From Planctomycetaceae bacterium (GTDB lineage Bacteria > Planctomycetota > Planctomycetia > Planctomycetales > Planctomycetaceae): a stretch of 32,892 nt of DNA. Numbering within the stretch: the first letter of the stretch is position 1; every line of letters starts with the position of its first letter. Of this stretch, positions 844 through 30,841 are shown piece after piece. The notes under the pieces were generated by a model. It ran no database searches. It was not told where the DNA came from and was given only the letters and a program-made list of their open reading frames with translations. Where the stretch lies: positions 1 through 32,892 of the forward strand of contig JABURQ010000022.1 of assembly GCA_014762625.1 (NCBI GenBank). The letters run 5' to 3'. Both the position numbers and the translations under genes were made by a program.

Positions 844-2601
844 ATGCCACGCACTTGGCGCTACGAACGACACGATCAGGCCATAATTGGGGATCTTTGC
901 CGAGAAATGCGAGTTTCTCCGCTATTGGCGCAGGTACTCATTGCACGCGGCTATACGAATTCAGAAATCGCCAATAAGTTCATTCATTCCAAATTAACCG
1001 ATTTGCACGATCCCGAATTGTTGCCGGGAGTGAGTGAGGCGGCTGAACTGATCGTGCAGGCGCTGAGCGACGAGCGTCGGATCACAATTTACGGCGATTA
1101 TGATGTCGATGGAATGACCTCAACCAGCCTCCTGTGGCGATGTCTCGGGTTGGCAGGCGGCAACGTCGATTACTATATCCCGTCACGACTTGAAGAAGGG
1201 TACGGCCTGAACTGCGACGCGATCCGCGAACTGCACAAACAAGATCCGGATCGATTGTTGATCTCGGTAGATTGCGGAATTACCAGCGTCGAAGAAGCGG
1301 AACTCGCGAACGAATTGGGACTTGAGCTGATCGTCACCGATCACCATCAAATGATCGATCAATTACCTCCCGCCAAAGTCCTGGTCCACCCGCGACTTCC
1401 CGATAGCCGATACCCCTTCGGCGAATTGTGTGGAGCCGGAGTGAGTTTCAAACTGGCCTGGGCAATCTGCCAGCGATTGGGGGATGGGACCAAGGCTTCT
1501 CCCAAAATGCGTGAGTTCCTGAAAAGTGCGGTTTGTCTGGCGGCGATCGGCACGATTGCGGATGTGGTCCCTCTCATTGACGAAAATCGTGCAATTGTTC
1601 GTTACGGCCTCGCGGGGCTGAAGGAGCTCGCTTCGCCGGGACTCAAAGCCCTCATCAAGGTCTGCGGCATCGAAAACAATAAAAGTTACACAGCCTCCGA
1701 TGTCGGATACTCGATCGGCCCTCGTCTGAATGCCGCCGGTCGCCTGGGGCAAGCGCGACTAGCGGTCGAACTGTTGACGACTTCGGATGAGGAACGCGCG
1801 TCGCAGCTTGCCGACTATCTGGATCAATTAAATAAAAATCGGCGTACGGTCGAACGGAGAATCTTCAAACGCGCGAAAGAGATCGTCGAGGAACATCCGG
1901 AATGGGATTCTCACTCAGCGATCGTACTCGCGGATGAGGAATGGCATCCCGGCGTGATCGGAATCGTCGCCAATCGGGTTGCGGAACATTATCAAAAACC
2001 GACGTTTCTAATTGCGATGGATGGATCGACTCGCATCGGACAGGGGTCCGGTCGAACTTCGGGCCAGGTCGATTTGCATTCTGCCATGATGGCTTGTCAG
2101 GAGTTGCTGGAAGGGTGTGGCGGACATAAAGCGGCCGCGGGACTTCGCATTCATGCGGATCGTGTGGATGAATTCCGTGAGCGGTTCTCCTCTTATGTAG
2201 CCGATCATCACGAAGTCGATGAGTTGATCGAAGATTTGCAAATTGACGCGGAAGTCTTATTGTCGGATGTTACCTATCGTGCGATTCAGGAACTCAACAT
2301 GCTCGGTCCGTTCGGGCAGGAGAACTCCAGCCCTGTCTTTGCCTCCGGGCAGGTGGAACTCGCCAAACCGGCGGCCACTATGGGAGAAGGGGATCGCCAC
2401 TTGAACGTTCAATTCCGGCAAAACGGAACGCAATTACGGGCGATTGCTTTCGGTCGTGGAGAATGGGCCGAGGAACTGAATCAGCACGCGGGCCCGATCA
2501 TGATCAGCTTCGAGCCAATGATTAACTCGTTTCGTGGTCGGGAAAGTGTGGAATTGCGTCTCTTGGACTGGAAAGCGCACGAGCCGGCAGCGGCTCGATA
2601 A
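844..2601 (+). CDS. recJ: Single-stranded-DNA-specific 5'-3' exonuclease RecJ
   Basis: RecJ degrades single-stranded DNA 5' to 3' in recombinational repair (RecF pathway), mismatch repair and fork processing in the cytoplasm. The 585-residue length is normal for the family. The DHH phosphoesterase motifs are in order: DYDVDG at 85-90, VDCG at 142-145 and TDHH at 165-168. The DHHA1 motif GGHKAAAG is at 426-433, and a C-terminal OB-fold region follows. The start at 844 has purine-rich GGGAGG and ACAGG upstream and puts the conserved N-terminus at a normal distance from motif I. It stands alone on the plus strand and converges on the regulator at 2648 across a 46-base gap. No odd residues were noticed in the motifs checked. 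Confidence 0.97.
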   Translation: MPRTWRYERHDQAIIGDLCREMRVSPLLAQVLIARGYTNSEIANKFIHSKLTDLHDPELLPGVSEAAELIVQALSDERRITIYGDYDVDGMTSTSLLWRCLGLAGGNVDYYIPSRLEEGYGLNCDAIRELHKQDPDRLLISVDCGITSVEEAELANELGLELIVTDHHQMIDQLPPAKVLVHPRLPDSRYPFGELCGAGVSFKLAWAICQRLGDGTKASPKMREFLKSAVCLAAIGTIADVVPLIDENRAIVRYGLAGLKELASPGLKALIKVCGIENNKSYTASDVGYSIGPRLNAAGRLGQARLAVELLTTSDEERASQLADYLDQLNKNRRTVERRIFKRAKEIVEEHPEWDSHSAIVLADEEWHPGVIGIVANRVAEHYQKPTFLIAMDGSTRIGQGSGRTSGQVDLHSAMMACQELLEGCGGHKAAAGLRIHADRVDEFRERFSSYVADHHEVDELIEDLQIDAEVLLSDVTYRAIQELNMLGPFGQENSSPVFASGQVELAKPAATMGEGDRHLNVQFRQNGTQLRAIAFGRGEWAEELNQHAGPIMISFEPMINSFRGRESVELRLLDWKAHEPAAAR

Positions 2602-2647: not shown

Positions 2648-4048
2648 TCATTTGAAATTGTGCTCGAGTTCATAACGGATATTGTACTTTTTCATTTTCT
2701 TATACAAAGTCGTACGATTGATACCGAGAGCTTCGGCAGTTTTCTGGCGATTCCATCCATTCGCATCCAACGCTTCGATGATGAGGTGTCGTTCGGGATT
2801 TGCGAGTGCTTCCTTGAGCGAACAGTTTTCCAGATCTTCAGCAGACGGCGGACGGTAGGAGCGATTTTCGCGGATAGCCTCGGGGAGATCGGTAATTGTG
2901 ATCAATGACGAACGGGCGAGGACGACCGCTCGTTCGGTGATGTTCACTAACTCGCGAACATTTCCGGGCCACTCATACCGTTGCATGACGGAAAGCGCTT
3001 CCTCACTGATTCCTTCGACCTGTTTGTGATTTTTGTCATTAAATACTCGGATGTAATGATCCACCAGCAGCGGAATGTCTCCAGATCGCTCCCGGAGTGA
3101 AGGTTGGTCGATGGTGATCACGTTGATGCGGTCAAACAGATCCTGTCGGAATTCTCCCCGCTCCACCATCGCTTCGAGATCCTGGTTCGTGGCCAGAATC
3201 ATTCTTACATCCACATGATGAGACTGATTGCCTCCAACCGATTCGAACTCACGAGTCTGAAGGAGATGTAACAGTTTTGCCTGCAGGCTGGGGGAAGCAG
3301 CGCTGATTTCGTTCAGAAACAGTGTCCCGCCGTCAGCTCGCAGTAATTTACCCGGCATGTCGAATGGCGCACCGGAGGTTGAGTCGGTCTCAGAACCGAA
3401 CAAATCCGCTTCAAGGAGAGTTGCAGGTAAGGTTCCACAAGAGAGTTCAATGAAAGGTTTTTCTCGTCGATGGCTTAACTGATGAATCGCTCGGGCGGTC
3501 ATCGATTTGCCGGTACCGCTTTCTCCAGAGATCAGAATCGTGGTCCGCGTGTCCGCCACACTCTCGATCACAGCAAACATCTTTGTCATTCGATCATCGC
3601 TTCCGATGATCTTCGAGAGGCTTTTTTGTTTCCCGAGTTGGGCCCGGAGGGTTCGGTTTTCGTCCTCAATTTCTCGATGCTTGAGAGTCCGCTGGATGAC
3701 CAGCTCCAGCTCTTCATCCACAACCGGTTTCGTCAGATATTCGTGAGCTCCCTTTCGCATCGCCTCCACAGCCGCGTCGAATGTTCCATGACTGGTTAGT
3801 ATGATAACGGTGGTCTCGGGATGTTTTTTGACCGTCCATTCCACCAATTCCAGCCCGTCAGAAGTTCTGAGGGTGAGGTCCGTAATGACCAAATCAAAGG
3901 AGAATTTTGCATTCCGCTCGACGACATCTTGAGAATCGAGGGCGCAATCCACCCGGTGCCCTCGTTTTTTGAGAGATTCCGTAATCCCGAAACGTATCTT
4001 GTCTTCACCCGCGACGACCAGAATGGACGCTGTTCGAGTTGTGTGCAT
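2648..4048 (-). CDS. NtrC-like response regulator with AAA+ and Fis-type HTH domains; several key motifs altered
   Basis: The 466-residue protein has the NtrC layout: receiver (about 5-120), AAA+ (about 145-380) and a Fis-like helix-turn-helix (about 425-455). Retained features are the phospho-acceptor D57, T85 and K107 in the receiver, Walker A GESGTGKS (165-172), the FRQDLFDR arginine-finger region and WPGNVREL. Three altered sites stand out. The acidic pair after strand 1 (normally DD) is AG at 13-14. The sigma-54-contacting GAFTGA loop reads DSTSGA (212-217), with flanks aligning without gaps. The Walker B aspartate is Asn (GTLFLNEI, N236). Family knowledge says these residues serve Mg binding, sigma-54 contact and ATP hydrolysis. 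It may therefore not be a classical sigma-54 activator and could act as a repressor or ATP-locked regulator (inference). No partner kinase is adjacent. Confidence 0.9.
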   Translation of the reverse strand: MHTTRTASILVVAGEDKIRFGITESLKKRGHRVDCALDSQDVVERNAKFSFDLVITDLTLRTSDGLELVEWTVKKHPETTVIILTSHGTFDAAVEAMRKGAHEYLTKPVVDEELELVIQRTLKHREIEDENRTLRAQLGKQKSLSKIIGSDDRMTKMFAVIESVADTRTTILISGESGTGKSMTARAIHQLSHRREKPFIELSCGTLPATLLEADLFGSETDSTSGAPFDMPGKLLRADGGTLFLNEISAASPSLQAKLLHLLQTREFESVGGNQSHHVDVRMILATNQDLEAMVERGEFRQDLFDRINVITIDQPSLRERSGDIPLLVDHYIRVFNDKNHKQVEGISEEALSVMQRYEWPGNVRELVNITERAVVLARSSLITITDLPEAIRENRSYRPPSAEDLENCSLKEALANPERHLIIEALDANGWNRQKTAEALGINRTTLYKKMKKYNIRYELEHNFK

Positions 4049-4463
4049 TGTTCTCTCGCTGAATACCTCCGAGAATCATGGACGGAGGATGAGTAAAGCC
4101 GCTGGAAAACGCCTTGTTTTCGGCCAACGAGCAAACCTAGGTCACAAGTGACGGTCAGGCAACATGCGTTTTTTCGCCGATGATGCAATTTCTCATCATT
4201 CTTGTTATTGTCACAGATGTAACGGCTATATGGTGTAAGAGCTTACAAAGAATTCTCTCCTTTCGGGTGACTGCTCGACGCCGTAGTCTGCCGAAAAGTG
4301 TGGTCATAATGAGCGGATTATGGGGATCCGAGGGAACTTCTTTGTCGTTGTTTCTGGATCAGGCGCGGGAATTTGGCTCGCGAACTTGACCCCTTGCACA
4401 AGTCCGTTCACAATCCAGCTTCACGAAAATATCACACCAACGGACGCGCCGTAAAGTTACGAC
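4049..4463. other. Divergent intergenic region with short inverted repeats
   Basis: These 415 bases separate the regulator (minus) from the phosphoesterase (plus). I see no convincing gene. Short dyads are present: GTCACAAGTGAC at 4141-4152, ATGATG/CATCAT arms around 4178-4197, and TGTAAGAGCTTACA at 4234-4247. They could be operators, for example for autoregulation by the adjacent regulator, but each is short enough to arise by chance. No sigma-54 -24/-12 promoter (TGGCAC-N5-TTGC type) was found by eye. Confidence 0.5.
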
Positions 4464-5225
4464 GTGGCCAGGAGTAAAGCGGTCTTGCGAGCTCTGATCA
4501 GCGACATTCACGGCAATCTGGAAGCGTTGGAAGCCGTGTTGGCCGACATCAAGTCGAAAGATATTACTGAGGTTTATTGTCTCGGTGACATCATCGGCTA
4601 CGGTCCGAATCCGTGTGAATGTATCGACCTGGTGATGAAATGTACCGGATGTATCCTCGGGAATCACGATCAGGCGGCGTTGTTCGATCCTGAAGGATTT
4701 AATCCGGGGGCGGAACGGGCCATCTTCTGGACACGTAAAATGCTCGAACAGGGAGCCGGTCGCAGCAACGAAAAACGTTGGGAGTTTCTGGGAGAATTGA
4801 CGCGCGTCATTCGCGAAGGCGAATTCATGTTTGTGCATGGATCGGCCCGCAACCCGCTGAATGAGTATGTCTTTCCGGAAGACATTTATAATTCTCGTAA
4901 GATGGAAAAAATCTTTTCGCTCATCGAGAAATATTGCTTCCAGGGACACACTCACATCCCCGGAGTCTTTCGGGAGGATATGACGTTTCTGGCTCCCGAA
5001 GATATCGATTTCAAATACACGCTGACGGATCAAAAAGTCATGATCAACGTCGGCTCGGTCGGTCAACCTCGGAACGGCGACAGCCGCTCTTCCTATGTCA
5101 TCATTGATGGTGATGAAGTCCTGTTCCAGCGTGTTGATTACGACTTCGACAAGACCGCGACAAAAATCTACGACATCACCGACCTCGATAATTTCCTCGG
5201 AGATCGCCTGCGAGAAGGCCGCTGA
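4464..5225 (+). CDS. Calcineurin-like metallophosphoesterase (YfcE/DUF2437-type)
   Basis: A two-metal phosphoesterase of unknown substrate, 253 residues from the GTG at 4464. The metallophosphoesterase blocks are SDIHGN near residue 14, [10 protein letters not shown] near 40, GNHD near 67, VHGSA near 123 and GHTHIPG near 165, followed by a beta-strand-rich C-terminus with [12 protein letters not shown]. This is the usual set in predicted bacterial phosphodiesterases of the YfcE-like group. The start is uncertain. A TTG at 4485 gives the typical [11 protein letters not shown] beginning and has AGGAG at 4470-4474, ten bases upstream, so it may be the true start (246 residues). It lies about 100 bases before yidC on the same strand, so cotranscription is possible. 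Cytoplasmic location is inferred, since no signal peptide is seen. Confidence 0.87.
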
Positions 5226-30784: not shown

Positions 30785-30841
30785 TGTTGACGTTTGCCAA
30801 CATAACAGGTCCCTATCTGCAACATAATAGGTCTATCTATG
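30785..30841. repeat. 22-base tandem repeat with CAACATAA half-sites
   Basis: Two adjacent 22-base units (30798-30819 and 30820-30841) agree at 17 of 22 positions, both starting CAACATAA and containing AGGTC. An inverted copy, ATGTTG at 30785-30790, faces the first unit across eight bases. These are in the 290-base gap before the small gene at 31003, which holds no other gene. Confidence 0.5.

Follow-up and report, generated by a model that had tools for sequence, protein, structure and literature searches.

A planctomycete NtrC-type regulator that has lost its sigma-54 activation motifs in one species while keeping a conserved DNA-binding domain

The window analysed here is a stretch of 32,892 nucleotides (contig JABURQ010000022.1) from a Planctomycetaceae bacterium, and it encodes an NtrC-type response regulator that we read, with a probability of roughly 0.55, as a former sigma-54 activator that has become a passive DNA-binding regulator in this one species. 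The residue losses, the open reading frame, the orthology and synteny of the gene and a pattern of selection that is split by domain are observed directly.

Results

Three motifs are altered in an otherwise complete regulator

The protein has the receiver, AAA+ sigma-54 and Fis HTH architecture of a group 1 sigma-54 enhancer-binding protein (bEBP), and every domain scores above its Pfam cut-off. It falls below every curated cut-off of the named NCBIfam equivalogs AtoC, NtrC, NtrX, the PrsR-type PEP_resp_reg and ZraR, the best scores being those for AtoC (408.8 against a cut-off of 714) and PEP_resp_reg (358.6 against 502.6). The gene and its features are as follows.

2648..4048, reverse strand: NtrC-type response regulator ORF of 466 aa (receiver, AAA+, lid, Fis HTH)
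Residues 9-117: receiver (Pfam)
Residues 147-313: Sigma54_activat (Pfam, 194 bits against a cut-off of 20.2)
Residues 319-402: AAA lid (Pfam)
2684..2800, reverse strand: Fis-type HTH, residues 417-455 (Pfam), with no near-invariant residue changed and the lowest dN/dS among the gene's domains on the window branch
4004..4012, reverse strand: AGE in place of the receiver's acidic triad, residues 13-15
3878..3880, reverse strand: Asp57, the phospho-acceptor position, kept
3503..3526, reverse strand: Walker A GESGTGKS, intact
3368..3385, reverse strand: DSTSGA in the place of GAFTGA in the L1 loop, residues 222-227
3308..3313, reverse strand: Walker B N246-E247 in place of D-E (LNEI for LDEI), the Asn246 codon AAC lying at 3311-3313
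3128..3148, reverse strand: R301 and R307 of the arginine-finger region, kept, with Y306 changed to D

A sequence-only reading of this DNA had reported DSTSGA for GAFTGA and GTLFLNEI for the Walker B GTLFLDEI, next to a preserved Walker A, arginine-finger region and Fis-type HTH, and the ORF confirms each of these points. The flanks of both altered motifs align without gaps, as that reading had also said, both against A. aeolicus NtrC1 and against the orthologues described below; its residue numbers (D212-A217 and N236) were 10 too low. The loss of the receiver's acidic residues (DDD to AGE) is a third change that it had not mentioned. Within the loop, Gly222 is replaced by Asp and is accompanied by F224T and T225S, while S214A, E215D and H219S flank it. 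T85 and K107 of the receiver are kept, which leaves the phospho-receiver set with Asp57, Thr85 and Lys107 in place and the acidic pair gone, and R365 is intact. The activator features thus comprise a Walker A, a Walker B that reads NE and not DE, and no GAFTGA L1 motif; like the GAFTGA-less bEBP homologues, the protein lacks the motif and retains its AAA+ domain and HTH. Pfam still assigns the label "Sigma-54 interaction domain" to this AAA+ domain, so that domain-based annotation would miss the loss.

An AlphaFold model of the protein (32 aligned sequences; mean pLDDT 77.8, pTM 0.50) has secondary structure in all domains, with residues 226-228 below a pLDDT of 50. Structure comparison places the AAA+ part of the model close to the ZraR, FlrC and LuxO domains, with TM(target) up to 0.93-0.94. 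Among long structural matches, those to NtrX, NtrC1, LuxO and VpsR rank best, with a TM of about 0.5-0.6, perhaps owing to a differing domain arrangement.

The losses are confined to one orthologue in the family

At E<=1e-110 the window protein has a match in 143 of the 170 family genomes (122 of the 130 good ones), one per genome, and 135 orthologues from those 143 genomes, the window's included, were aligned in a census that left aside partial matches such as those in G057, G062, G069, G078, G085, G109, G111 and G116. The family orthologues share 48-65% identity with the window protein (56% for the relative L066) and have the same domains and HTH. Their loop reads GAFTGA in 87 cases, GSFTGA in 44, GAFTSA in three and DSTSGA only in the window protein; with DSTSGA in one orthologue out of 135, chance need not be considered. 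At Walker B, 133 rows read DE and the window protein NE, with one further row frameshifted, and the receiver triad is DDD in 122, EDD in seven, DHD in two, DPD in one, gapped in two and AGE in the window protein. All 135 keep the Walker A Lys as well as R301, R307 and R365. The changes are found in a single species: neither these 135 orthologues from 170 family genomes nor a further homologue search, from which records near the window's genome may be missing, gave a closer relative that shares them.

The sequence-only reading had taken the changes to mark a subfamily. Such a GAFTGA-less subfamily that includes the window gene is ruled out, because the other 134 orthologues, unlike the window protein, keep G[AS]FTGA or GAFTSA, and 133 of them keep the Walker B Asp-Glu. 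Homologues with an intact loop and Asp had been expected to signal an isolated mutation or a sequencing error; such homologues abound, and what they reveal in the window protein is not one mutation and hardly a sequencing error, as 18 near-invariant residues differ, in two domains and in an open frame. The idea that the protein no longer remodels sigma-54 holoenzyme and may still bind ATP and DNA is not borne out for a subfamily and has sequence support for this one protein, where it agrees with the retained Walker A, arginine fingers, sensor II and conserved HTH. A sequencing or assembly artefact is hardly credible: the assembly is a draft of 208 contigs, but the 18 substitutions are dispersed, structured by domain and set in an open frame, the genome is 99.99% complete and the neighbouring genes are normally conserved.

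A different kind of receiver change was seen in all three genus-g53 genomes of the set (G150, G151 and G152), whose orthologues have Glu at the position of Asp57, a disturbed acidic pair (DHD or DPD), and an intact GSFTGA and Walker B; they are possibly a constitutively 'on' version of the regulator.

What is known of the altered motifs, cited here and below from extracts of the respective papers, bears on whether the protein is still a sigma-54 activator, merely one with an unusual loop. This we regard as very improbable. In its favour, rpoN is present, the minor L1 variant GAFTSA occurs in 3/135 orthologues, and PspF E108Q, altered in the Walker B Glu and left with <1% ATPase, remains able to activate on pre-melted DNA (PMC4132715), so that remodelling may survive a change in Walker B by itself. 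The E108Q variant nevertheless did so only with an intact GAFTGA (PMC4132715), GAFTGA contacts sigma-54 and substitutions of its central Phe or Thr are reported to abolish activity in most cases (PMC3162934), and here F224T, T225S and Gly222 to Asp coincide with loss of the Walker B Asp, a residue required for hydrolysis and not for binding (PMC10274813).

Intact, stop-broken and motif-altered copies occur in one genus

Two congeners, G001 and G002, are available for comparison with the window genome (G000), and in both the order recJ / regulator / phosphoesterase is preserved.

844..2601, forward strand: recJ, convergent with the regulator gene and syntenic across the three congeners; it serves as a dN/dS control
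4464..5225, forward strand: metallophosphoesterase-like gene, next to the regulator gene and divergent from it in each of the three congeners; also a dN/dS control

The orthologue of G002 is intact. That of G001 (G001:C192:4334-5722, L011) carries an in-frame TGA and TAA as well as G178V in Walker A and G233E, and would by its sequence be either a recent pseudogene or an assembly error. Given an intact and a stop-broken orthologue side by side, the activator function seems dispensable or changing in this genus. Loss of rpoN as the cause was rejected, since rpoN is found in 156/170 family genomes, all three congeners among these, with a Sigma54_DBD match in each of G000, G001 and G002. An intact replacement copy was likewise sought in the window genome and none was found, the other AAA+ matches being paralogues of <=42% identity.

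Sequence change and selection are split between the domains

We defined near-invariant columns as those with >=98% agreement among reference orthologues, a set that leaves out G000, G001, G063 and G046, and obtained 136 of them. The window protein breaks 18, of which 16 are not common to the congeners; D62T and T182S are the breaks that the window shares with both. They fall in the receiver (6/23) and the AAA core (12/71), and the lid (0/23) and HTH (0/19) have none, so that the contrast of receiver plus AAA core with lid plus HTH (18/94 vs 0/42) gives a Fisher p=0.0016, or p=0.0028 with the 16 unshared breaks alone. For comparison, G001 has six breaks (one of them a stop), G002 four, and the 131 reference orthologues a maximum of five and a median of 0. 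Compared with 71 orthologues from other genera (G063 left out, and G001 also left out for the invariant columns), sequence identity follows the same division: it is 0.42 for the window receiver against 0.60 in the congeners, 0.65 against 0.74-0.75 for the AAA core, 0.52 against 0.55 for the lid, and 0.768 for the HTH, against 0.766 among those orthologues themselves and 0.73-0.75 in the congeners. The linker (residues 121-146), which was outside the codon model below, stands at 0.40 against 0.50-0.51.

Selection was estimated with our own MG94-type codon model on six taxa, with shared neutral branch lengths and a dN/dS for each domain and branch class. With synonymous sites near saturation (2.5-3.9 neutral substitutions per codon on the window branch and on the other longer branches) and shared branch lengths not fully converged (about 10 likelihood units gained in the last round), dN/dS on the window branch against the background was 0.26/0.08 for the receiver (p=1e-7), 0.165/0.043 for the AAA core (p=1e-9), 0.17/0.16 for the lid (p=0.86) and 0.018/0.098 for the HTH, which is lower (p=0.025). 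Measured against the congeners' stem branch the rises are weaker for the receiver (p=0.008) and AAA core (p=0.0024), the lid does not differ (p=0.12) and the HTH is not significantly lower (p=0.29). The window-branch values of all four domains are far below 1. No rise was seen in the control genes, with 0.015 vs 0.083 for the phosphoesterase, 0.13 vs 0.22 for yidC, 0.18 vs 0.21 for mnmE and 0.041 vs 0.039 for recJ, the last compared with the stem since its three taxa allow no background estimate.

Uniform decay, with the same neutral fraction in the four domains, was rejected in favour of domain-specific rates (2dlnL 29.7, 3 df, p=1.6e-6), a result that was nearly unchanged when branch lengths were scaled by 0.6. 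If the neutral fraction is fitted to the receiver and AAA core, the HTH would need an omega of 0.23 in place of the 0.018 found (p=1.6e-7). These results speak against the possibility that the gene is an early pseudogene, in which case the regulator would be dispensable in the genus and decaying, and the conservation of its HTH would reflect selection before the loss. The two nonsense codons of the G001 orthologue together with its G178V and G233E, the 8/130 good family genomes without a match at E<=1e-110 (some of which may be assembly gaps) and the damage to the window's own operator (see below) are in keeping with decay. Besides the rejection of a uniform rate and the HTH omega, it has to contend with 466 codons that are fully open, a promoter layout that is kept, and a lid and HTH that are not relaxed, and we consider it unlikely. 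From the conserved HTH we argue that DNA occupancy is what selection still maintains.

A candidate operator points to an ancestral sigma-54 activator

Upstream statistics cover the 132 of 135 orthologues with >=250 bases in front of the gene; in a direct DNA alignment of these regions distant genera matched poorly, and it gave no more than a lead. The palindrome GTTG-N8-CAAC precedes the gene in 59/132 of these regions (shuffles, mean 0.5-0.8), in 11/132 as two copies 33-34 bp apart, and we infer that it is bound by the regulator. A sigma70-like -35/-10 pair is found in 38/132 regions (shuffles 0.45), its -35 coinciding with the operator in 23/132 (shuffles 0); an overlap of operator and sigma70 -35 resembles NtrC autorepression. 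The window gene retains traces of the same arrangement.

4147..4164, reverse strand: operator remnant of GTTG-N8-CAAC, the left half kept and the right half GTCAC instead of GCAAC
4134..4162, reverse strand: sigma70-like promoter TTGCCT - 17 - TAGGTT, overlapping the operator remnant, a layout that some of the orthologues share

The -10 TAGGTT is also found in other genomes and is therefore not a defect. Autoregulation is at least damaged, since the window's own operator lacks one half-site.

Genome-wide, the tandem operator occurs in 46/170 genomes compared with 17/170 for a reversed control, 11 of the matches lying at the regulator's own promoter; two tandem matches in G104 were discarded as simple repeats at contig ends. 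In seven genomes of genus g10 tandem operators stand before one same gene, and at 5/7 of these loci a -24/-12-like box, whose frequency has no chance control, lies about 160-210 bp from them. The gene itself, as represented by L300, is without a Pfam match. At other loci the tandem site stands before a sugar transferase gene (L302) or is flanked by Wzz-like and UDP-sugar dehydrogenase genes (L304). Three of the 10 proteins considered near such sites are polysaccharide-like (one by a Wzz match below cut-off) and the others are unrelated or unmatched, which makes polysaccharide genes only a lead as targets of the regulator. Because tandem operators accompany -24/-12-like boxes in g10 and rpoN is present across most of the family, the orthologues look like true sigma-54 activators, and the ancestor, judged by these sites, resembles a classical, self-repressing sigma-54 activator.

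Within the genus of the window species the picture is sparser. Its three genomes have no match to the tandem operator and none to the Gimesia-like target protein, in a search that had no positive control. Operator-like palindromes are in about 3-fold excess over the control (12/4 in G000, 21/6 in G001 and 16/6 in G002), and 37/48 single operators examined, the window site at 30785 left out, fall inside ORFs of >=80 aa. Sigma-54-like boxes counted on both strands are not in excess over a reversed control (16 vs 25 in G000, 20 vs 21 in G002), and of 36 box loci 30 were examined from 400 bases upstream to 60 downstream: none of the 30 had an operator with <2 mismatches and seven had one or more with two, so that the boxes carry no information on targets. 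One candidate target is common to the three congeners, with its site directly before the start codon, perfect in the window species and with one mismatch in the others; as a single case it is weak. A second apparent shared target (L356/L367/L369) was rejected, the small downstream gene being present in L367 and L369 and not in L356, with sites that do not align.

Comparison with other regulators without GAFTGA

NtrC proteins without GAFTGA are known from Caulobacter and the Rhodobacterales, and loops are defective in TyrR, DhaR, HupR and VpsR (extracts of PMC10274813, PMC12421884 and PMC3162934). Caulobacter crescentus NtrC is like the window protein in being NtrC-type and lacking GAFTGA; it has kept DNA binding and acts at sigma70 promoters as both activator and repressor (PMC10274813, PMC12421884). 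Its loop bears an 8-residue deletion, whereas that of the window protein is a substituted DSTSGA; ammonium use requires its Walker A/B residues, whereas the window protein has no Walker B Asp; and its Asp56 is needed for full glnBA activation, whereas the window protein is without the receiver acidic pair (PMC10274813, PMC12421884).

The window protein might likewise be a functional regulator of the sigma70 type, activating sigma70 promoters or both activating and repressing them, possibly by binding ATP without hydrolysing it. GAFTGA-less NtrC proteins at sigma70 promoters provide the precedent, as does V. cholerae VspR, which reportedly works without ATP or phosphorylation (PMC10274813), and the kept Walker A and arginine fingers and the operators that coincide with a sigma70-like -35 upstream of orthologues would suit such a role. 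Against this, the NtrC proteins of Caulobacter and R. capsulatus require their phospho-acceptor Asp (PMC10274813), whose acidic pair is gone here, and an activated promoter was not identified; we hold this option to be distinctly improbable.

R. capsulatus NtrC and HupR, E. coli TyrR and DhaR and V. cholerae VpsR and VspR are established lineages with other inputs. They are bEBP homologues with a defective or missing GAFTGA and roles that do not involve sigma-54, and as far as the extracts of PMC3162934 and PMC10274813 describe them, none combines loss of the loop with loss of the Walker B Asp and of the receiver acidic pair. A literature search on loss of GAFTGA in planctomycete NtrC found no report of this case; PMC12316311 does join Planctomycetes, NtrC and GAFTGA, filtering for the motif, and in the extracted text the loss is not described.

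The window genome has another NtrC-type regulator without GAFTGA, C174 (L030 681-2027, reverse strand; G000:C174:684-2027, reverse strand), with a match at E<=1e-120 in 145/170 family genomes. In a sample of 55 members from 55 of those 145 genomes (orthologues L385-L393 and L398-L442), GAFTGA is kept in 0/55, three members reading GAFxGA with the Thr changed to Pro or Ala. Loop length is variable, and the mean identity within the loop is 0.18, against 0.69-0.70 in its flanks and 0.86 at the HTH end. Walker B is DE in 50/55; three members have the Asp replaced by N, A or S, and the other two read DD. Walker A and the receiver are kept. Two C174 homologues in other families of the class (L394 and L395) keep GAFTGA. 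At 19/35 loci with flanks, the C174-group regulator is adjoined by a homologue of the histidine kinase that partners it in the window species. C174 and the window gene are thus both NtrC-type and GAFTGA-less, and differ in that the C174 loss is widespread, its Walker B is mostly DE and a histidine kinase is adjacent; on sequence grounds the C174 group is a GAFTGA-less group of the kind that the sequence-only reading had imagined, formed by a different gene from the window's. A third NtrC-like group (L037, G002:C85; L038, G001:C221) has neither GAFTGA nor the Walker B Asp-Glu, reading GSLFLIEA, and its copy in G000 (G000:C154:48358-49293) carries a TAG.

Discussion

The loss of activity, the retained DNA binding and the passive role of the window protein are what its sequence suggests. 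In the receiver, loss of the Mg/phosphate chemistry would remove phospho-control; in the AAA+ domain, Mg-dependent ATP hydrolysis would be lost; and in the L1 loop the contact with sigma-54 would be missing. The protein probably still folds, may bind nucleotide, and would retain binding to its DNA site, represented in orthologues by the GTTG-N8-CAAC palindrome. It could then act passively by occupying sites at or near promoters, through repression or competition with another regulator, and not through opening of sigma-54 promoters. A stronger version, which we put forward tentatively and at somewhat less than even odds, is that the sequence records the nearly complete conversion, in one species, of an activator into a signal-blind, hydrolysis-dead DNA-binding regulator with an HTH held at least as tightly as in the relatives that still work. 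Besides activation, the ancestral protein may have had a job that did not involve sigma-54, in operator occupancy, as the overlap with a sigma70 promoter at its own gene in relatives might indicate, and this job would be the sole survivor.

NtrC homologues without GAFTGA were already known, and those described in the papers cited here are finished products. Here, intact, stop-broken and motif-dead orthologues stand in one genus in the same gene order, which makes it testable whether a separate DNA-binding function is freed or exposed once the activator function is lost. Since the window genome also has a regulator from a widespread GAFTGA-less group, the family offers both the process and its end state.
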